Positions 4,456 through 62,688 of a DNA stretch of 64,000 nt are shown one piece after another. Position numbers and translations under genes: made by a program. The stretch is from the NCBI RefSeq assembly GCF_002019705.1, contig NZ_KV917377.1, positions 4,393,085-4,457,084 on the forward strand, given 5' to 3'. Under the pieces are notes generated by a model, which searched no databases, had not been told where the DNA came from, and was given only the letters and a program-made list of their open reading frames with translations. This DNA comes from Shouchella patagoniensis. Lineage in GTDB: Bacteria > Bacillota > Bacilli > Bacillales > Bacillaceae_D. Position 1 is the first letter of the stretch; each line of letters opens with the position of its first letter.

Positions 4456-4610
4456 ATGCATCATACTCATGAGTATTCGGTTTCGGTGAAGGCCCATGCA
4501 AAGCCTGCGGTTGAAATGGCTGTCCATTGTATGGGCTAGGAATTCCTCCTCATTTGCTTTGGTGCTATTTCCTATCATGCGGTTTTGCTGCCTTATTTGG
4601 AAAAAGATAA
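4456..4610 (+). pseudogene. Possible frameshifted small protein gene
   Basis: A short frame with a good ribosome site (AGGGGG, spacer 6) starts at the ATG at 4456 and reads 27 residues rich in His, Met and Cys (MHHTHEYSVSVKAHAKP...) before TAG at 4537. Shifting by one nucleotide at that point gives a plausible continuation with a hydrophobic C-terminus (IPPHLLWCYFLSCGFAALF) up to TAA at 4608-4610. This suggests a small protein broken by one frameshift just before the CD3324-family gene. I do not recognise the family. The rest of 4324-4455 shows nothing else. Confidence 0.3.
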
Positions 4611-4628: not shown

Positions 4629-4898
4629 ATGGCTTATAAGAGTGCTTCCATCGTATTACCAAAAAAATTAATAAAAGAAATTCAAAAAGATGTCCAAGGT
4701 GAAACAATCTATATACCTAAGAAAGAAACAGCTTATTATCAGTGGGGTGAACGTTCGGGAACAAAAGCATTTATTCATAAACGTAACGCTGCGATGAAAC
4801 AAGCTTTTTCTGAAGAGATCTCAATCGAACAATTGGCAGCCCGACATCACTTGGCGGTCGAAACGATAAAAAAGATTGTTTCCGTCAAAAAATGTTAA
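4629..4898 (+). CDS. CD3324-family protein, HTH-like
   Basis: An 89-residue protein with the CD3324 family pattern: an N-terminal (A/G)Y.KA...LPK.LIKEIQ.. segment, the QGETIYIPKK motif, a WGE(R/K)(S/T)G.K motif, and a C-terminal helix-turn-helix-like region (SIEQLAARHHLAVETIKKIV). Members are small putative DNA-binding proteins related to Mor-type activators; their biological role is not established. A paralogue with the same motif order lies at 61135-61443. AAGGAG precedes the ATG by about 10 nt. A weak hairpin with a TTTT tail follows at about 4896-4920. Confidence 0.7.
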   Translation: MAYKSASIVLPKKLIKEIQKDVQGETIYIPKKETAYYQWGERSGTKAFIHKRNAAMKQAFSEEISIEQLAARHHLAVETIKKIVSVKKC

Positions 4899-5011: not shown

Positions 5012-5540
5012 ATGTTAGTAGGACATACCGTTTATTTACGACCACTTAAAGAAGAGGATCCCCCTAGCATTTTTTCTGGTTTGCAAGATGAAGAAGCATT
5101 ACATGACCGCAACTCGTAAGATCCTTACGAAAGAAGAAGTGATTGCAGCGGTACGTCGATTTGAGCAGGACACGACCCGTCATGATTTCGCCATTTGTTT
5201 AGTGGAAAGTGGTGTGATAATTGGAGATTTGGCCATTACAGAAATCGATTTAGACAATAACAAAGCCATGTGTCGAATTGCTATGCATCACAAAAAAATA
5301 CTATGGCAACGGATACGGGACTGAGGCAACACTGCTTGCTCAACAAATCGTTTTTGAGCAGCTTCAATTAAATCGCTTAGAATTGCAAGTGTATTCCCTA
5401 ATCCTAGAGCAATCGCAGCTTATAAGAAAGCTGGTTTTCGTCAAGAAGGTGTATTGAGGCAAACGTTGTATATGAATAATGTCTATTCGGATGAGATCAT
5501 AATGAGTGTGTTGTATGAAGACTATATGAAAAAGCAGTAG
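5012..5540 (+). pseudogene. GNAT acetyltransferase pseudogene
   Basis: This would encode a RimJ/RimL-type N-acetyltransferase, but the frame is broken at least three times. It opens at 5012 with a good ribosome site (MLVGHTVYLRPLKEEDPP), shifts near 5098, shifts again in a run of seven A at about 5291-5297, and a third time near 5397. The pieces spell a normal GNAT (YYGNGYGTEATLLA, then NPRAIAAYKKAGFRQEG). The acetyl-CoA loop is the GNGYGTEA stretch. Three separate indels in one gene argue for real decay, not a sequencing error. A terminator hairpin, GCAGTAG/CTACTGC, overlaps the end (5534-5560). Confidence 0.8.
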
Positions 5541-54080: not shown

Positions 54081-55901
54081 ATGCTTCCATCAGCTAAGCG
54101 TATTGCCGAAAACGCCTCTTTACAAGCTTTTCTTAATAGCTTTACCCGTGAAACGGGGCTAGGAAAAATCGTACCAATCCATGAAATTGAGGAGGCGGTC
54201 GGTTTCCGCCGTCTACAGAGTCAAAAAGTGATGAAACTAGGGTTAGCTAGGCAAGCGTGCCAATTACTGATAGAAGTGCATTATGAATCGCTTGTTGGAC
54301 GTCACACATTTGGTACAGTCTTGAAAGAAAGTTATGGTCGAGCATCTCAAGAAGAAGAGCCATTAGCTGTAATGATTCTGCTTATTCAAGAGTTGCACTT
54401 ACAAACAAAAGCCAATCCACAAATACAAGATTCCACCTTTGAGGAATGTTTAGTACGAATGATTGAAAGTTGCCAGACGATGGGTGTCTACATCGAAGAA
54501 CGAATGAATGAAAAGGAAGCGCTGTACGAGCCGAAACAATCATTTATTGATTCAGAACAGTCGCTATTATATGGACATTGGTTGCATCCTACTCCTAAGA
54601 GCAGACAGGGGATGACCCATTGGCAACAACAATCATTTGCCCCGGAACTAAAGGGGGACTTTCAACTCTACTATTTTTATGTGCATCACACAATTCTGGA
54701 ACAAGAATCATTAGGGAAGATGAGTGCGTGGGAAATGGTGTCACAAGAGGTTGAAGGGATAACCGAATTACCAGAACTTGATGAGAAGTGGTTGACTTAC
54801 CCAATGCATCCGTTGCAAGCAGAGTATTTGCTTTGTCAGCCACATGTAAAAGAAGCGATACATGTGGGGCTTATTAAAGATATTGGACCCGCGGGCAAAC
54901 GCTTTACGGCAACGTCGTCGATTCGTACTGTTTATAGTGAATCAAGTAAATGGATGTACAAATTTTCCATTCCTGTTAAAGTGACAAATTCATTGCGTAA
55001 CAATAAGCGACATGAGCTTCGAGCAGGTATATTAGTCGCAAAGTTACTGACTCATTCTCCGTGGCTGCAACAAAGTAAGACATTTACGATGATTACGGAC
55101 CCTGCTTATTTAACGGTTCGATTACCAGGGTTAAAAGAATCAGGATTTGAAACCATTATTCGCGAAAATCCATTTTCAGATGGCGGACAGGGGATTAGTT
55201 CTATAGCTGCCTTGGTGCAAGATCCGTTGCCTGGATGCTCTTCAAAACTTAAATCGATTATTGTAGAACAAGCGGAACAAGAAAAAACAACGGTTGCCAA
55301 CATTAGTATTCGTTGGTTTAACACATACATAACGATCGCACTTCAGCCCCTTATTCGTTTGTATGATGAGCTTGGCGTTGCGTTAGAAGCTCACCAACAA
55401 AATAGCTTACTTGACGTAAGTGAAGGGTATCCAAGTGCCTACTATTATCGAGATAATCAAGGCTATTATTTGGCGGACTCGTATAAAGCTCTACTACTGA
55501 ATAAAGAGCCTGATTTACTAGAAACAAATGGCTTGTTTTATGAAGATTCACTAATTGAGAACCGATTTTCGTACTATTTGTTAATGAACCAAGTGTTTTC
55601 GATTATCCATCGTTTTGGTGTAGACGGATTAATAGATGAATCGATCTTGATGTCAATATTGCGTAGTGAGCTTGAAAGGATCAAGCAGACATGTATAGGT
55701 GCGGGACGTTCATTCATCGGAGGATTGTTGGAAAAAGAGAAACTTGCGTTTAAAGCAAATTTATTAACACGGTTTCATGATGTGGATGAACTAGCAGAGG
55801 ATTTAGAACAAGCAGTGTACGTAAAAATTAAAAACCCGCTCCATAAAGAAGAGGAGAAAGTAGAGGTGGCTTATGCAAAAGCTGTCTACTCTACCAACTA
55901 A
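54081..55901 (+). CDS. asbA: Petrobactin synthetase AsbA (NIS synthetase)
   Basis: About 606 residues, IucA/IucC-type NIS synthetase. In B. anthracis AsbA joins spermidine to citrate. Family motifs: YPMHPLQAEYLL, SSIRTVYSESSKWMYKFSIPVKVTNSLR, and LGVALEAHQQNSLL near the C-terminal palm. I place the start at the ATG at 54081 (MLPSAKRIAENASLQAFL), which matches the B. anthracis N-terminus; the ATG at 54060 lies almost in the Fur box and has no ribosome site. The asbB start lies inside its end (29-nt overlap). First gene of six. Confidence 0.92.
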   Translation: MLPSAKRIAENASLQAFLNSFTRETGLGKIVPIHEIEEAVGFRRLQSQKVMKLGLARQACQLLIEVHYESLVGRHTFGTVLKESYGRASQEEEPLAVMILLIQELHLQTKANPQIQDSTFEECLVRMIESCQTMGVYIEERMNEKEALYEPKQSFIDSEQSLLYGHWLHPTPKSRQGMTHWQQQSFAPELKGDFQLYYFYVHHTILEQESLGKMSAWEMVSQEVEGITELPELDEKWLTYPMHPLQAEYLLCQPHVKEAIHVGLIKDIGPAGKRFTATSSIRTVYSESSKWMYKFSIPVKVTNSLRNNKRHELRAGILVAKLLTHSPWLQQSKTFTMITDPAYLTVRLPGLKESGFETIIRENPFSDGGQGISSIAALVQDPLPGCSSKLKSIIVEQAEQEKTTVANISIRWFNTYITIALQPLIRLYDELGVALEAHQQNSLLDVSEGYPSAYYYRDNQGYYLADSYKALLLNKEPDLLETNGLFYEDSLIENRFSYYLLMNQVFSIIHRFGVDGLIDESILMSILRSELERIKQTCIGAGRSFIGGLLEKEKLAFKANLLTRFHDVDELAEDLEQAVYVKIKNPLHKEEEKVEVAYAKAVYSTN

Positions 55902-57621
55902 ATGTGATCAACGAGTGATGAGGCAACTAGTGGAAGCAATTTTATTTGAGGAAATCATACCTATAGTTGAAACAGAGATGAACGACGGATGGAAGTTGTT
56001 TAGATTTCAAGGCAACGAAGCCACATATCAATGCATGGGCAAACGTTCAGCGTTTAGTCGAATACGCTTAACGGGTTCTCTTCTTGTATGTCGTGACGAA
56101 GGGAAGCAAGAGATCGCTTCTATTACTGAGTTAGTCTATGATCTTCCAATCTCATATGAAAGAAAAGAAAAGATTCTACATGAGCTTAAACAAACGGTTT
56201 TGTTGACTGAAAGAAATGAAGCATTGCTTGAGATACCTCTATCAAGAAGAGAGCTTTCCTATGAACGTTTAGAAGCGGTACTAGTGGAAGGGCATCCATA
56301 CCATCCGTGTTTTAAAGCAAGAACAGGCTTTTCAATAGAAGATCACGAACGGTATGGCCCAGAAGGAGAGAACGTGTTCCAACTGATTTGGCTTGGCATT
56401 CGAAAAGAGGATGTAACGGTCTCTTATCCAGTAGAAGAACATAGCTTTCTCCAACAAGAATTAGGGTATGCCGTTTGGAAGCAAGTTGTTCAAGCATTAT
56501 GTAGACAAGGTGGGCAGCTTTATGACTATCGGCTAGTACCAATCCACCCGTGGCAGTGGTATGCGTTAAAAGAGGATCAGTTAAATGAAGCTATTCTTAA
56601 AAAAGAGATCCTGTATCTTGGTCACTTTGGTGATGCTTATAAAGCGACACAATCTTTACGGACGGTGATGAATCAAGAGGATATACGAAAAGCGCATGTG
56701 AAACTACCGTTAAATGTCGTCAATACGTCATCGCTGCGTTCAATCGCTCCACATCTTATTGTAGCAGCGCCAAGTATTTCAGCGTGGTTAAAACGTATCA
56801 TTGATTGCGATCCTTTCTTAAAGGATGAAGCAAACGTTCAGATTTTAACAGAATATGCTGGTGCTGCATACGAGCCTTCGGGAAAGCCTTGGAACAAAGC
56901 GGTATTTGGGCAAATTGGCTGCATCTATCGTGAAAGTATTGCTACTAAAGTGATTGGAAGGGAACAGGCTATTCCATTTAATGCGCTTCCACTAGTAGAA
57001 AAAGATGGCGATCTATTTGTTACACCTTATTTGGAATCTTACGGGGTGGAACCTTGGCTTGAGCAGTTAATCGAAGTGAGTGTCATCCCCATTATACATT
57101 TACTCGCAGAGCATGGAATCGCGCTAGAAGCTCATGCCCAAAACATGGTGCTTGTTCATGAAAATGGGTGGCCAAAGCGTGTTATTTTAAGAGACTTTCA
57201 TGAGAGCCTAGAATATTGCAAGGGATTTGTTCAGAAACCTTCTTGGATTCCTGCTTTTGAGAATCTTCATAAAGCATTTAAAGATGGAGCAGTAAATGAA
57301 CATTACTGGATGTCGTCGATTGAAGCATTAAGAGAGTTGCTAATGGATACGTTGTTTGTTTATCAGTTATCCGAACTTTCTTGGCAAATTGAAGTCCATA
57401 ATGGTTATCCAGAAACGCAATTTTGGCAGTTAGTCGATCGAGCTATCCGCGAATACATAAAGAAGGGAATCGTTCCAAAAGAACGTATTAAGGCGTTAGG
57501 GTTAGATGTGCCCATTATAACAACGGAATCACTGCTCAAACGTAAATTAACTGTTGAGTCAGTTTGCAGTCACACCGTGCGGAATGAGCTAGGAAAGGAG
57601 CGATTTGCATGTTTGCAGTAG
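55873..57621 (+). CDS. asbB: Petrobactin synthetase AsbB (NIS synthetase)
   Basis: 582 residues, second IucA/IucC-type synthetase; in the known pathway it condenses the citryl-spermidine intermediate with a second spermidine or dihydroxybenzoyl-spermidine. Motifs: GHPYHPCFKARTGF, PIHPWQWYALKE, ATQSLRTVM, VKLPLNVVNTSSLRSIAPH, IALEAHAQNMVL. GAGGTGGCTT before the ATG supports the start inside asbA. It overlaps asbC by 13 nt. Confidence 0.92.
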   Translation: MQKLSTLPTKCDQRVMRQLVEAILFEEIIPIVETEMNDGWKLFRFQGNEATYQCMGKRSAFSRIRLTGSLLVCRDEGKQEIASITELVYDLPISYERKEKILHELKQTVLLTERNEALLEIPLSRRELSYERLEAVLVEGHPYHPCFKARTGFSIEDHERYGPEGENVFQLIWLGIRKEDVTVSYPVEEHSFLQQELGYAVWKQVVQALCRQGGQLYDYRLVPIHPWQWYALKEDQLNEAILKKEILYLGHFGDAYKATQSLRTVMNQEDIRKAHVKLPLNVVNTSSLRSIAPHLIVAAPSISAWLKRIIDCDPFLKDEANVQILTEYAGAAYEPSGKPWNKAVFGQIGCIYRESIATKVIGREQAIPFNALPLVEKDGDLFVTPYLESYGVEPWLEQLIEVSVIPIIHLLAEHGIALEAHAQNMVLVHENGWPKRVILRDFHESLEYCKGFVQKPSWIPAFENLHKAFKDGAVNEHYWMSSIEALRELLMDTLFVYQLSELSWQIEVHNGYPETQFWQLVDRAIREYIKKGIVPKERIKALGLDVPIITTESLLKRKLTVESVCSHTVRNELGKERFACLQ

Positions 57622-58850
57622 ATGATCAACTTTTTACAGAAAGTGATTATTATCATTATGAGCACCAACTGAACAAGCATCCGATCTGGCAAAAAGCAGA
57701 TAAATGGCGAATTGCTGTCTGCCCTGAAGATATTGGAAAGTGGATTATGCTCTTACTTTATTTAAAGAAAAAAGAAGCAAGTGTAGTACCAATTCATCCT
57801 TCCACACCAATTACTGCAGCAGAGCGAATTGCCGAACAGGCTGGTTGTTATTATTTATTTTATCATTCGTTTGAGGCACCAATTACTTTATCGAATCCAC
57901 AAAGTAACATTCAACCAGGCTTGGTTCAATTTAGCTCTGGTACGACCGGAGAACCGAAACAAATAAAACGGAGTTGGGTTTCAATTGATGAAGAGATCGC
58001 GGCTTACAGCATTCAATTTAAGGATGTCGAAGTGGACACGATTATCGTAGCTTGCCCGGTGACACATTCATATGGTCTCATCAGTGGCGTATTAGCTGGA
58101 TTTGCTCAAAACAAGCATGTTCTTATTGTGACAACTCAAAACCCAAAGTACGTATTAAAAAAAGCGAAAGAGCATTCGAAATACTTGCTTTATGCAGCGC
58201 CTCCACTCCTCTATACACTGGCGAGATTCATCAAAGGTGAGGAGCGATTATACGGGGTTATGACCTCTGGGACAAGACTGTCTGATACATGGTTCAAGAC
58301 GATTCGAGCTTCAAGTGTGTTTCTAATGCAACAATATGGCTGCTCGGAGATCGGATGTATGAGCGTAACACAATCTTTGAGTCATCCTGATCAAATGGGA
58401 AAAACGCTATCGCATTTAAGTATTACAGCTGGTCAAAGCAAAAACAAACCAGCAGAGATAGCAGTAATAAAAGGTGCTCGCTCAATGGCAACAGGAGATT
58501 TAGGTTATTTTAACAATGAAGGCGTGCTCTGCTTTCTCGAGCGAATAGGAGATATGATTAATGTTGCTGGTTTGAATGTTTATCCACATGAAGTGGAACA
58601 AGTTCTTTGTCAGCATAATGAAGTGAGTGAGGCTGTTGTTTACAAGAAAGTTGACACTTTTGCAGGAGAAAGAGTATATGCTCAAGTGGTTGCAGATGAA
58701 CAGATACTGTCGGTGGACGGGTTAAGAAGCTGGTGTATTGAGTATTTAGCACCTCACCAGATTCCGCAGCAATTCACAATAGTGGACGCTATTCAAAAAG
58801 GTGCAAATGGAAAAATAAATCGTAAGCAATTAGGGGAGGTGGCGGAATGA
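57609..58850 (+). CDS. asbC: 3,4-dihydroxybenzoate adenylating enzyme AsbC
   Basis: 413 residues, ANL-superfamily AMP ligase, short as in other AsbC proteins. ATP loop QFSSGTTGEPKQIKRSW (about residues 105-120), QQYGCSEIGCMS for adenylate binding, GDLGYFNNEGVLCFLERIGDMINVAGLNVYPHEVE, and the catalytic Lys near the end (GANGKINRKQL). It activates 3,4-dihydroxybenzoate and loads it onto AsbD. Overlaps asbD by 4 nt (ATGA). Confidence 0.92.
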   Translation: MFAVDDQLFTESDYYHYEHQLNKHPIWQKADKWRIAVCPEDIGKWIMLLLYLKKKEASVVPIHPSTPITAAERIAEQAGCYYLFYHSFEAPITLSNPQSNIQPGLVQFSSGTTGEPKQIKRSWVSIDEEIAAYSIQFKDVEVDTIIVACPVTHSYGLISGVLAGFAQNKHVLIVTTQNPKYVLKKAKEHSKYLLYAAPPLLYTLARFIKGEERLYGVMTSGTRLSDTWFKTIRASSVFLMQQYGCSEIGCMSVTQSLSHPDQMGKTLSHLSITAGQSKNKPAEIAVIKGARSMATGDLGYFNNEGVLCFLERIGDMINVAGLNVYPHEVEQVLCQHNEVSEAVVYKKVDTFAGERVYAQVVADEQILSVDGLRSWCIEYLAPHQIPQQFTIVDAIQKGANGKINRKQLGEVAE

Positions 58851-59116
58851 CATATAAAGAAGCAGTGAGCGCCATTTATGAGATTTTAAAAACAGAGCTT
58901 CAAATAAACACACTCGAATCTTTTCATGAAGACGCTCGTTTAAATGAAGATCTTGCAATTGATTCCGTCATGATGCTTCAAATTTTGCTACAGCTTGAAA
59001 TGGATTATGGCATTGAGATTCCTGATGAAAAAATTGAAAGAGACTCCTTTTTTAGTGTGCGGACATTAGCTCAATTTTTGGAGCTGCAAGGACAATCGGA
59101 GCCTACTCATGATTAA
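58847..59116 (+). CDS. asbD: Aryl carrier protein AsbD
   Basis: 89 residues, four-helix carrier protein. The phosphopantetheine attachment Ser is S40 in NEDLAIDSVMMLQILLQLE. Acidic overall, as usual for carrier proteins. It carries the activated 3,4-dihydroxybenzoyl group between AsbC and AsbE. It overlaps the asbC end by 4 nt and the asbE start by 8 nt. Confidence 0.92.
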   Translation: MTYKEAVSAIYEILKTELQINTLESFHEDARLNEDLAIDSVMMLQILLQLEMDYGIEIPDEKIERDSFFSVRTLAQFLELQGQSEPTHD

Positions 59117-60080
59117 AGTACACTGTTTTGTTAGCTGTGTATGTGAATTACTAAAGAAAAGAGGAGTGGATCATCGGCCTTATTATTTTGGGGTATGGGA
59201 TGCCGATTTTGCTCTTGATGACTCGTTTGCTTTAGCCTATCATGCTGATGGAATTGATCATTCGTTCTTTAAGAATTGGTATGAGCTATTATATGGCATT
59301 CGCCTACATGAGTGGTATGAAGAACAGAAAACAAAGGAAGAAAATATCGAGACGTTAGACTATTTGGTTGAGAACAAAGGAAGTGGTCATCATATTATGG
59401 TGATGCTTGACTTATCTTTATTGCCAGAACGAGAAAATAAATTTCATCAAAAGCCTTTTCCTCATTACGTCATGCTAGAGAAGACAAATGATCCAGAGGA
59501 ATGGTTTATGTTCGATCCTGATTTTCGCTGGGAGGGACGCATCAAGAAAAAACGCATACTAGATGCGGTTCGATCACCTGATGTAGGTGGTGGCTTTTCA
59601 TTTGATGGAGATCAGATTCATGTGCCAACAGCTCAAACCGTTGAAGCCTATTTTCATACGTGCATGAAATTAGATAAGAACCCTTTGACAGAAGCGGTCC
59701 GCTCGATTGTAGAAGCGTTTATGTATGGAAGTGAACAACATCGATTATCTGAACTAGGTTCTTCACTTAAACAACTTCCTGTTTTAGCGATCCGTAAGTA
59801 TGCCTATGAACATGCATTTGCTTATTTTTGGATGGCTCTGGATTTTGGTGAGGAAGTATTCGAAGCATGGTGCGATGAAATTGAATCGCTTGAAAAAGGC
59901 TATAAAATTGTTCACTATCGGGCGATGAAATTAGCAAAGACAAAGAAAGAAGAAGATTATCAAGCGTTATGTGATCAGTTGGATAAACAAGATAAGCTCG
60001 AAACAGCGATAAAACACGGGTTACATCAATATTTTACTCAATGGGCACAAAAACAAAGCCAAGTCGAACAAATTGGTTAA
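59109..60080 (+). CDS. asbE: Petrobactin biosynthesis acyltransferase AsbE
   Basis: 323 residues. Similar in length and position to AsbE of B. anthracis, which transfers the dihydroxybenzoyl group from AsbD to spermidine. The sequence has a Cys near the start (HCFVSCVCELLKKRG), conserved aromatic segments (YYFGVWDADFAL) and HHIMVMLDLSLLP. I cannot point to catalytic residues with confidence; the assignment rests on context and overall family likeness. Starts inside asbD. Confidence 0.88.
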   Translation: MIKVHCFVSCVCELLKKRGVDHRPYYFGVWDADFALDDSFALAYHADGIDHSFFKNWYELLYGIRLHEWYEEQKTKEENIETLDYLVENKGSGHHIMVMLDLSLLPERENKFHQKPFPHYVMLEKTNDPEEWFMFDPDFRWEGRIKKKRILDAVRSPDVGGGFSFDGDQIHVPTAQTVEAYFHTCMKLDKNPLTEAVRSIVEAFMYGSEQHRLSELGSSLKQLPVLAIRKYAYEHAFAYFWMALDFGEEVFEAWCDEIESLEKGYKIVHYRAMKLAKTKKEEDYQALCDQLDKQDKLETAIKHGLHQYFTQWAQKQSQVEQIG

Positions 60081-60091
60081 AGGAGGATGAA

Positions 60092-60916
60092 ATGAACCTA
60101 TCTATTTGTACAATTTCGTTTCGTCATGGATTGCAGTCGATCGAACAAATAACGGAATGGGCTGGGAAACGAGGATTTGATGGGATTGAACTTTGGGGGA
60201 CCCATGCTCGGCATTTGGCCAGTGATCCAGAATTTAATGGAAGTTGGTTGCGTTCTATAGGGTTATCGGTACCAATGATAAGTGATTATTTGCCACTTGA
60301 GCAAAGCTGGGATGAAGTAAGAGCTACCGCAATTCGTACGTTTTCCCTCGCCAACCATTGGAAGACAAACCATGTTCGAATTTTTGCTGGTGGAAAAGGT
60401 AGTTTGCAATCGACGAATGAGGAGCGGTCTTATATTGCGGCTCAATTACATCGCTTATGTCATTTAGCTGAAGACAGAGGACTACGAATTTTGCTGGAGA
60501 CACATCCACGCACATTATGTGATACGCTCCCATCCACTCTACAGCTATTGGCAGAAGTGAACCACCGAGCATTGCATGTTAATTTTGATGTTCTTCATGT
60601 ATGGGAGAGTGGGGTGGACGTAAATCTTGCATTTCAGCAACTTCAACCGTTCATTAAGCATATGCATTTGAAAAACATTACTTCGACTGCACATTTAGAT
60701 GTATTTATACCAGAAAATGTGTTTTCTTCTTCAGGATCTCGAAAAGGAATGACGAGTTTGTTTAAAGGGTGTATTGATTATAAAACTTTTTTTGCTATGA
60801 ATGATATAAGTGGTCTTAATGCATCACTTGAATGGTTTGGTCCCCACCCTTTTGAAATCTTGGAGGAAGATGGAAAGCAACTACTGCCGTATCGTAAACA
60901 AAAACTGTACCATTAA
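60092..60916 (+). CDS. asbF: 3-dehydroshikimate dehydratase AsbF
   Basis: About 274 residues, AP-endonuclease-2-like TIM barrel. It converts 3-dehydroshikimate to 3,4-dihydroxybenzoate, the catechol of petrobactin. Motifs: GFDGIELWGTHARH, RILLETHPRTLCDT, HVNFDVLHVWESG and IKHMHLKNI carry the metal-binding Glu/Asp/His set. The ATG at 60092 has AAAGGAGGATGA just before it; the in-frame ATG at 60041 lies within asbE. Last gene of the operon; a hairpin follows at 60937. Confidence 0.93.
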   Translation: MNLSICTISFRHGLQSIEQITEWAGKRGFDGIELWGTHARHLASDPEFNGSWLRSIGLSVPMISDYLPLEQSWDEVRATAIRTFSLANHWKTNHVRIFAGGKGSLQSTNEERSYIAAQLHRLCHLAEDRGLRILLETHPRTLCDTLPSTLQLLAEVNHRALHVNFDVLHVWESGVDVNLAFQQLQPFIKHMHLKNITSTAHLDVFIPENVFSSSGSRKGMTSLFKGCIDYKTFFAMNDISGLNASLEWFGPHPFEILEEDGKQLLPYRKQKLYH

Positions 60917-60962: not shown

Positions 60963-61023
60963 TAATGAGAAAAAATTGATAATATAAATGGGATTAAGAG
61001 TTTAACGTATGGGAGGGATATAC

Positions 61024-61047
61024 ATGAGAAAGTTTATTATTTGCTAA
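61024..61047 (+). CDS. Seven-residue leader peptide
   Basis: A strong ribosome site (GGGAGGG, 6 nt before the ATG) opens MRKFIIC followed by TAA. The last codons and the stop overlap the first arm of a hairpin (61043-61051). The 88-nt stretch to the next gene's TTG holds two hairpins that cannot form together. Such an arrangement is typical of translation-dependent attenuators. The codons that might be sensed are Ile-Ile-Cys. Confidence 0.55.
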   Translation: MRKFIIC

Positions 61048-61106
61048 TAGCAAAGACTGCTATTAGCATACGACTCAAATAAAAGATAGTAGTCTTTGCT
61101 TTTCTC
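61043..61106 (+). promoter_or_regulatory. Attenuator-like alternative hairpins
   Basis: Hairpin 1: GCTAATAGC (61043-61051) with GCTATTAGC (61059-61067), perfect 9 bp. Hairpin 2: AGCAAAGACTGCTAT (61049-61063) with ATAGTAGTCTTTGCT (61086-61100), 15 bp with one wobble, followed by TTTCTCTTATTTC, a weak terminator tail. They share 61049-61063, so only one can form. The leader stop codon lies in the first arm. Confidence 0.6.
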
Positions 61107-61134
61107 TTATTTCAATATAAGGAGGAGCAAAGTA

Positions 61135-61443
61135 TTGGGATACATTAAAGCGGAACGTGTGTTACCAAAAGAACTGCTAAAACAAATACAAACATATATC
61201 GACGGTGAATGCTTGTATATTCCTAGAAAAAAACAGAATAAAAAAGGGTGGGGAGAAAAGACCGGTGCTAAAACAGTACTGGAAGCAAGAGATAAAGACA
61301 TTTATATCCAATATGAACTTGGACGAACGATAAATGAACTTGCTGAACACTTTTTCCTCTCACAGAAGAGCATTGAACGAATTGTGTATCAACAAAAGCG
61401 TCATACAAGCAAGGGGGCTGTCCATCAGGTCATAAAGAAGTGA
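61135..61443 (+). CDS. CD3324-family protein, HTH-like
   Basis: 102 residues. The start is a TTG at 61135 (LGYIKAERVLPKELLKQIQTYI) behind AAGGAGGAGC; the open frame to 61096 has no start signal and runs into the hairpin. Same motif order as the paralogue at 4629: GYIKAE..LP, DGECLYIPRKK, WGEKTGAK, then a C-terminal HTH-like segment (TINELAEHFFLSQKSIERIVYQQK). A small putative DNA-binding protein of unknown role. The leader with a peptide and two hairpins suggests regulated expression. Confidence 0.72.
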   Translation: MGYIKAERVLPKELLKQIQTYIDGECLYIPRKKQNKKGWGEKTGAKTVLEARDKDIYIQYELGRTINELAEHFFLSQKSIERIVYQQKRHTSKGAVHQVIKK

Positions 61444-61777: not shown

Positions 61778-61796
61778 GTAATGAAAAGGAGTGGCT

Positions 61797-62231
61797 ATGT
61801 CAAATAATGTTTCTCACTTAAATCAATTATGGACAGATATTTATTATTTATTGCGGTATAAGCACAAAGAAAAAGTGACTCACATAGGTGTAAGAATTAT
61901 GCAGATCATCGAGAAAGAAAGGGAAGTGGGCATTCAAGATATTGCTAGAGTAATGGATATATCACCTAACACGGCATCAGAACATGTGAAGCGTTTAACT
62001 GAAAAGAAATACGTTTATAAGACTCGGAGTGATGAAGATGAACGAAAAGTGATTGTGAAACTAACGGATGTTGGTGCAGATGTACTGCATCTAAACTCAA
62101 GTTTGGATGAAGGCAAGCTTACCGGAATTTTTGCACAAGCATCAACAAAAGAGCAGGAAGCCATTATTCAATCATTCCAATTACTAAAAGAGTTAGCCAA
62201 AAAGAATGAGGAACAGGAACAAATTGATTAG
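61797..62231 (+). CDS. MarR-family transcriptional regulator
   Basis: 144 residues. HTH at about 40-70 (GIQDIARVMDISPNTASEHVKRLTEKKYVYKTRSDEDERKVIVKLTDVG). The ATG at 61797 follows AAGGAGTG; a GTG six bases earlier is inside that site. The GNAT gene downstream starts 10 nt after its stop, so both form an operon, and the regulator probably represses the pair through the palindrome upstream. The ligand is unknown. Confidence 0.85.
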   Translation: MSNNVSHLNQLWTDIYYLLRYKHKEKVTHIGVRIMQIIEKEREVGIQDIARVMDISPNTASEHVKRLTEKKYVYKTRSDEDERKVIVKLTDVGADVLHLNSSLDEGKLTGIFAQASTKEQEAIIQSFQLLKELAKKNEEQEQID

Positions 62232-62241
62232 GGGTGAGGTT

Positions 62242-62688
62242 ATGAAGTACAGGAAAGCAACGATAAAAGACATCAATGTTCTAATCGATTTACGGAAAAA
62301 GCAGCTTAGTGACGAGGGGATCAAAGCTGATGGTACGATTAATCAGGAGCTTCATCAATTTTTCGAAGTTACATTAAACGATCAGTCACTTATTCAATTA
62401 TTGGTTGAAGAAAAGGATCAGATCATCGCATGTGGTGCTGTTATGTTTTATCAGTTCCCACCTACTTACACGAACAAAAGTGGGAGAAAGGCTTATATTA
62501 CAAATATGTATACAGAAAAAGAATACCGTGGAAAAGGGATTGCTACTAAAATACTCACCAAACTGGTGGAGGAAACACGTCAAATTGGCATCTCGAACAT
62601 ATGGCTCGGTGCTTCAATGTTAGGAAGGCCCGTTTATAAGAAGTTTGGTTTTACTGAAACAGATGAGTGGTTGGAGTTAACGGTATAG
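62242..62688 (+). CDS. GNAT N-acetyltransferase
   Basis: 148 residues. Motif A AYITNMYTEKEYRGKGIATKILTKLVEE with an R-G-K-G-I-A loop, and motif B IWLGASMLGRPVYKKFGFTETDEWLEL. This is the common Bacillus small-molecule acetyltransferase type, often linked to drug or amine resistance. The ATG at 62242 is behind GGGGTGAGG. In operon with the MarR gene. The substrate is unknown. Confidence 0.85.
   Translation: MKYRKATIKDINVLIDLRKKQLSDEGIKADGTINQELHQFFEVTLNDQSLIQLLVEEKDQIIACGAVMFYQFPPTYTNKSGRKAYITNMYTEKEYRGKGIATKILTKLVEETRQIGISNIWLGASMLGRPVYKKFGFTETDEWLELTV

Follow-up and report, generated by a model that had tools for sequence, protein, structure and literature searches.

A conserved leader RNA before CD3324-family genes is probably an erm-type translational attenuator of a Mor-like transcription activator

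The CD3324 locus and its leader RNA

The window (the whole 64,000-nucleotide stretch of DNA analysed here) contains two genes of the CD3324 family, both on the plus strand. The protein of the gene at 61135-61443 scored 114 bits against NF040785, with a curated cut-off of 65, confirming the family label of the initial annotation. Its sole Pfam match was Mor (31.4 bits; gathering score 24.9). A fold search with its AlphaFold model (pLDDT 78, pTM 0.51) returned phage Mu C first but weakly (E 0.02), with Mor in fifth place (E 0.27), and a sequence-profile search of solved structures gave no match under E 0.05. The modelled protein resembles the phage Mor/C activators, weakly by fold. The Bacillus subtilis member of the family may be yraL. 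On the 5′ side, the neighbour of the gene is of AP_endonuc_2 type and ends at 60916. A gene row that includes DUF6005 and AP_endonuc_2 (Pfam) spans 55873-60916, just 5′ of the CD3324 locus, and has the look of a petrobactin-type siderophore synthesis set (putative asb genes). On the 3′ side, a MarR-type gene separates the CD3324 gene from a GNAT gene. Downstream of the second CD3324 gene, overlapping short frames at 5012-5457 look like a single GNAT gene interrupted by frame changes. The features of the window are as follows.

4456-4539, plus strand: class B leader frame MHHTHEYSVSVKAHAKPAVEMAVHCMG, 27 codons, before the second CD3324 gene
4629-4898, plus strand: second CD3324-family gene, 95.5 bits to NF040785
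61011-61017, plus strand: ribosome site of the leader frame, GGGAGGG (from sequence)
61024-61047, plus strand: leader frame MRKFIIC and stop (ATG AGA AAG TTT ATT ATT TGC TAA)
61042-61052 with 61058-61068, plus strand: hairpin 1:2, predicted off state, 11 pairs (from folding)
61049-61063 with 61086-61100, plus strand: helix 2:3, predicted on state (from folding and covariation)
61090-61110 with 61117-61137, plus strand: helix 3:4, hiding the ribosome site and start (from the best fold)
61119-61127, plus strand: ribosome site of the CD3324 gene, AAGGAGGAG (from sequence and folding)
61135-61443, plus strand: CD3324-family gene, 102 amino acids, TTG start at 61135, Mor-like (NF040785 and Pfam Mor matches)
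61791-62231, plus strand: MarR-type gene, next 3′ of the CD3324 gene (profile matches)
62206-62688, plus strand: GNAT acetyltransferase gene, candidate target of CD3324 (profile matches)

The initial annotation had proposed a leader peptide with its own ribosome site and two exclusive hairpins ahead of the CD3324 gene. We found the frame MRKFIIC and its ribosome site as described. The two arms assigned to the first hairpin (61043-61051 and 61059-61067) do pair, in a hairpin that extends one pair further at each end, and the longer, exclusive hairpin has exactly the arms proposed. Folded by itself, 61049-61105 formed 16 pairs (−20.4 kcal/mol, z −5.2), and 61000-61140 reached −36.7 where shuffles averaged −23.6 (z −3.8); in each case none of 200 shuffles did as well. 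The best fold of 61000-61140 pairs segment 3 with the CD3324 ribosome site and TTG start, the site having a predicted mean unpaired probability of 0.003 in the window fold. Segment 3 pairs with segment 2 or with this ribosome site, never both, and hiding of that site by helix 3:4, absent from the initial annotation, is the predicted output. As in erm-type attenuators, a short frame with a ribosome site lies 5′ of the gene and the main ribosome site sits in a predicted helix. A consensus scan found no plus-strand promoter 5′ of the leader. There was no Rfam 15 match over the gathering threshold in the window or at the leaders of 40 fetched loci, the sole match across those loci being one 5S rRNA away from the leaders.

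The 16-pair helix of the window is followed by TTTTCTCTTATTTC, so the U-rich run of the initial annotation is present at this locus. Such an arrangement would suit transcription attenuation, with helix 2:3 and the U run forming a terminator that hairpin 1:2 prevents. We consider this unlikely. Among relatives retaining the helix, a U run is not a general feature (alignment A2, described below), a terminator scan made no call (the helix loop being longer than the scan allows), and helix 3:4 covers the ribosome site. Because the U run is not general in relatives, we set the terminator aside as the general output. The transcriptional and translational levels could nevertheless both operate, which the available part of PMC9226507 reports for B. 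subtilis vmlR.

Recurrence, covariation and leader peptides

A CD3324-type match was present in 65 of 149 related genomes, over the curated cut-off in 43. A genome-contig scan that used just the window protein as query gave no relatives, whereas an alignment query found many: 571 stretches were confirmed, and 80 named loci were kept. An unselected test used the 200 nt upstream of 72 of these loci, chosen by protein only and after dropping eight near-duplicates. A leader frame preceded by a ribosome site, with a 12-mer helix scoring at least 8.5 anchored at its stop, occurred in 38 of the 72 loci, compared with 3.6% of 360 dinucleotide shuffles. Eighteen loci scored 0, and several of these have a leader start beyond the 200 nt used. 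The leader-like frame alone was a weak sign, since 76% of the real regions have one and so do 51% of the shuffled ones.

We examined pairing in alignment A2 (41 sequences, most of them chosen partly by pairing), where helix 2:3 (12 pairs) was 96.5% paired and double-changed cells numbered 40, compared with 14.1 after shuffling; slid versions of the helix were at most 51% paired. Double changes fell in 6 of the 12 pairs, a modest signal given a shuffled mean of 4.0 and 15 of 500 shuffles as high. Since A2 is partly selected for pairing, we took 48 loci by the 5′ element only; 43 of these paired better with their own downstream sequence than, on average, with swapped ones (means 8.1 versus 5.0). 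Helix 2:3 therefore covaries and, as described below, the MRK start of the leader is conserved, the two comparative signs on which the initial annotation had staked its proposal.

A covariance model (R1) gave 11 matches at E ≤ 1.3e-6 in the 149 relatives, all at CD3324 genes, one of which is broken; seven rows at E 0.002 to 0.0094 lie outside this count, and the match at L157 is at a contig end. Searches of 398 genomes of the phylum and of 73 genomes of another order each yielded three new matches, two before CD3324 and one false. The matches at L168 and L170 were judged false. From 26 genomes chosen for CD3324 came 43 rows, 2 antisense and 41 sense; the sense matches precede CD3324 (32), DUF1062-like genes (8) or a GNAT gene (1). 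We conclude from these comparisons that the predicted attenuator layout recurs before CD3324 genes in Bacilli and Clostridia. We set aside the idea that CD3324 is phage or plasmid cargo: a tblastn search of phage and plasmid collections with a Clostridial CD3324 protein gave 0 phage records and 5 plasmid records.

Several loci show partial forms. The attenuator is kept before a frame of only 16 codons in C. tetanomorphum (L184) and before a broken CD3324 gene at L065 (G022). At L064, in a genome of the same genus as the window (G006:C36, about 798-1080), a CD3324 remnant lies at the same place without leader, hairpins or 5′ part; R1 had no match anywhere in that genome.

The second CD3324 gene of the window has a longer leader of another type with an HAKP motif, which we call class B, whose exclusive helices covary across Bacilli. 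In an alignment of 30 of 35 loci picked by leader resemblance, helices 1:2, 2:3 and 3:4 were 95.8% paired, and 7 of their 23 pairs had double changes; an alternative helix 1:3 was 98.8% paired, with double changes in 4 of 8 pairs. At L055 and L056 (G147:C4), two CD3324 copies in tandem, about 0.8 kb apart, carry identical class B leaders.

Leaders beginning MRK were found at six Bacilli loci including the window (MRKFIIC, MRKLILS, MRKYIIN, MRKLISN, MRKLIYY and MRKNTFFA), and M(G)KY leaders at four Bacilli loci by reading of upstream regions. Among the 80 named loci, many of them Clostridial, the leader stop is often the TAG within GCATAGCAAAGGCTATTGC, and the leaders include MRRYIIFA, MKYPSLKVFLNS, MMEPKKTA and MGTPYYVA. 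Very short hydrophobic leaders ending LLV, MLV, MFV or MLI precede CD3324 at L072, L080, L098, L113, L016, L013 and L002, mostly beside beta-lactamase-type hydrolase genes; by eye they resemble macrolide-stall peptides, and the MILLV type may be like the peptides of macrolide-resistance genes. In another CD3324 subgroup (L043, L048 and L053), a shared short frame (MITNNEVISA, MITIYEVISA and MKLITKYEVISA) lies about 205-260 nt upstream of CD3324.

This variety bears on what the leader might sense. The initial annotation had offered Ile-Ile-Cys as one possible sensor. The last residues of the MRK-type relatives are LS, IN, SN, YY or FA, the MRK start being conserved, and we rejected Ile-Ile-Cys sensing because those residues vary among leaders. 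MRK and KY leaders often have Lys or Arg close to their start, as might be expected if the leader were an amino-acid attenuator that stalls when one charged tRNA (Lys, Arg, Ile or Cys) runs short. That explanation is improbable: no single amino acid is repeated in or common to the leader types, MGTPYYVA, MSVEIIYA and others are without Lys or Arg, and amino acid genes are absent from the frequent Pfam matches of 66 downstream neighbours.

Covariation alone needs no translation, and an RNA that binds a protein (CD3324 itself, for instance) or a small molecule could also covary, the short frame being incidental. We regard this as very improbable. In 41 loci of our leader listing, a frame with its own ribosome site stops at one common point of the hairpin, and across the core codons of 15 KY leaders 172 of 364 pairwise codon differences are synonymous, against 19% for random single changes, although these pairwise differences are not independent. 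The RNA also stands 5′ of DUF1062-like and GNAT genes, and the leaders have no Rfam match, as noted above.

Simulated stalling and the candidate targets of CD3324

We simulated ribosome stalling by blocking bases and computed the cost of opening the CD3324 ribosome site in 35 loci. Opening energy was used because unpaired probability barely moved with simulated stalls in many loci. The mean cost was 10.6 kcal/mol with hairpin 1:2 held and 6.1 kcal/mol with helix 2:3 held, the gain being at least 1 kcal/mol in 28 loci and less than 1 kcal/mol in 7. For the window the cost fell from 11.9 kcal/mol (off) to 5.4 kcal/mol (on). Yet a short stem remains in the window, so that at equilibrium most of the site is paired in the on state too, with an unpaired probability of only about 0.1; this residual pairing points to a shortcoming either in the model or in the simulation.

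In the window, the cost was about 8 kcal/mol at codons 3-4 versus 13 kcal/mol at most other codons, and four of the five MRK leaders had their minimum at codons 3-4 (L004 at the leader end), not at codons 5-7, the Ile-Ile-Cys position named in the initial annotation. All six MGKY leaders had the minimum at codon 8 or 9. Among six MKY leaders it lay at codon 8 in three, at codon 9 in L011, at codons 4-5 in L096 and at codon 1 in L121, which has a second dip at 7-8. The best predicted stall site, therefore, is mostly just past the conserved part of the peptide.

The computation shows the helices, the covariation of helix 2:3, the conserved leaders, their recurrence and the opening-energy difference; we infer that the leader is translated, that ribosomes stall on it and that CD3324 acts on its neighbours. 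With no stall, ribosomes would complete MRKFIIC and leave, hairpin 1:2 would form and segment 3 would pair with the CD3324 ribosome site. A ribosome stalled near codons 3-4 would instead sit over the 5′ part of arm 1; strand 61049-61063, thereby freed, would capture segment 3 (61086-61100) and the CD3324 ribosome site would open; the CD3324 protein would then probably activate a nearby resistance-type gene. The conserved leader and the covarying helices bear out, at the level of sequence comparison, the ribosome-coupled attenuator first proposed for this locus, and comparison supports a real, conserved switch. We think it probable that the switch is an erm-type translational attenuator controlling a Mor-like transcription activator. 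The most likely cause of stalling would be ribosome-targeting antibiotics.

We surveyed neighbouring genes for candidate targets. Pfam matches among 66 same-strand downstream proteins included Acetyltransf_1 (19), DUF1062 (15), FusB-type EF-G-binding (7), beta-lactamase-type (5) and ABC_tran (5); the DUF1062 label comes from Pfam for this set (15 of 66) and from resemblance elsewhere. The associations of leader type with neighbour given here are raw counts confounded by relatedness. A single GNAT group accompanies the KY leaders in 8 of 9 named loci, L121 being the exception, and in 4 of 4 Bacilli loci; MRK leaders go with GNATs of differing kinds in 5 of 5 scanned Bacilli relatives, and the Clostridial leaders MRRYIIFA and MKRYVIFA with DUF1062. 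A leader frame was found in 6 of the 7 FusB-type loci, with TF..K..CS common to all six. Two of the 7 FusB-type proteins scanned against FusF scored 60 and 64 bits, far below the cut-off of 435, and we therefore do not assign these neighbours to fusidic acid resistance. Leaders ending LLV, MLV, MFV or MLI are present in the five hydrolase (beta-lactamase-type) loci; exceptions to this pairing are MILLV at L002, with an APH-type kinase, and L095, with a resolvase-type frame.

In some loci the attenuator is attached straight to a candidate effector, namely the 8 DUF1062-like genes and the GNAT gene. By eye, a second attenuator between CD3324 and DUF1062 is clear in 7 of 13 printed intergenic regions and doubtful in 1. 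DUF1062 genes with their own attenuator copy, often with a similar leader, occur at L069, L089, L114, L119, L123, L125 and L135; the pair at L125 is MGTPYYVA and MGTPYYIA. In Oceanirhabdus (L196) the leader MKYPSLKVFLAS lies directly 5′ of a GNAT gene whose product is 44-52% identical to 8 GNATs found after KY-leader CD3324 genes. The similarity comes mostly from residue 10 onwards, and residues 1-9 (MSYNSAKSE) resemble the start of CD3324. From the sequence, it looks as if CD3324 has been lost here and the effector put under the attenuator. This bypass is our best hint that CD3324 may relay the signal to that GNAT gene.

We also sought an operator for CD3324. Of 65 intergenic regions following CD3324, 17 scored at least 14 for a candidate motif, CTCAA-N19-TTGAGG-N20-TGnTAnAnT; none of 80 other spacings gave more than 6, and shuffled sequences gave 0.33. 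The choice of this fixed spacing drew on some of the very sequences counted, which makes the count partly circular. Upstream of CD3324, in regions not used for choosing the spacing, 4 of 69 scored at least 16 against 0.000 expected, L073 reaching 19 of 19. Held-out loci, mostly class B, gave 2 of 67 downstream (0.7 shuffled, another spacing reaching 6) and 0 of 67 upstream; one of the two, L169, scores 18. Earlier operator tests had been weak, with strict forms in at most 5 of 58 and a mean best score of 10.6 versus 9.5 shuffled. In the window, no position on either strand reached 16 and none beside either CD3324 gene reached 14. The motif lies upstream of the CD3324 leader itself at L073, L075, L104 and L112, which suggests self-activation; we saw no second attenuator in the printed intergenic regions of these four loci. 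Judging by these sequences, the activator step likely holds in part of the CD3324 family; for the window it is a candidate step.

By analogy with WhiB7, a cascade from stall to activator to resistance-type gene is plausible and partly supported. On a fuller version of this scheme, Bacilli and Clostridia would share a two-step antibiotic alarm in which exchangeable leaders, each specific for a single type of ribosome inhibitor, govern a Mor-like activator of the matching resistance gene (FusB-type, GNAT, DUF1062 or hydrolase), partly through the CTCAA-N19-TTGAGG-N20-TGnTAnAnT promoter, as an independent counterpart of WhiB7. We give this version slightly less than an even chance. If it were true, leader type would predict the drug and hence the function of neighbours such as DUF1062. 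Many Bacilli and Clostridia would hold an undescribed circuit coupling ribosome stalling through a transcription activator to a neighbouring defence gene, with testable functions for the CD3324 family and DUF1062. The leaders MRK.., KYPSLK, TF..K..CS and ..LLV or ..MLI would be new candidate stall peptides for ribosome work.

Comparison with known attenuators and activators

Our search, which covered few subscription journals, found no literature on CD3324 leaders or on a DUF1062 function. The CD3324 element is not described in the available parts of PMC12121999, PMC10314930, PMC12561750, PMC11109978, PMC8632094 and PMC12421871. The ermC and ermB attenuators, as presented in the available part of PMC12121999, are alike in having a short leader, exclusive hairpins and a hidden main ribosome site; a stalled ribosome opens that site in the erm systems and would do so here. 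Unlike them, the window has a Mor-like regulator as its main gene rather than a methyltransferase or other resistance determinant, and the CD3324 leader peptides and RNA are unrelated to theirs in sequence as far as seen. According to the same available text (PMC12121999), the whiB7/wblC uORF of actinobacteria senses several ribosome inhibitors and, like the CD3324 leader, precedes a transcription factor, which in that case controls resistance genes. However, CD3324 is Mor-like and not WhiB, and its ribosome site is hidden; for both systems we infer the stalling.

Other systems share single features. The MsrDL leader MYLIFM, very short and hydrophobic, stalls with macrolides (available part of PMC10314930) and resembles by eye the leaders MILLV, MKMLI and MNLFLLV of some CD3324 genes, but it controls a terminator and an ABC-F gene. 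In Bacillales, uORFC-6-1 before hflX is a computed leader with a stall motif, covarying RNA and a ribosome-rescue gene (available part of PMC8632094); with its Arg-Leu-Arg motif and hflX target, it is another RNA and gene than the CD3324 leader. Phage Mu Mor/C are alike through the Pfam Mor match and the weak top fold match to Mu C, whereas CD3324 had no match in the phage collection and its DNA binding is a prediction. The kind of device is known; the CD3324 attenuator family, its target and its spread appear to be new.
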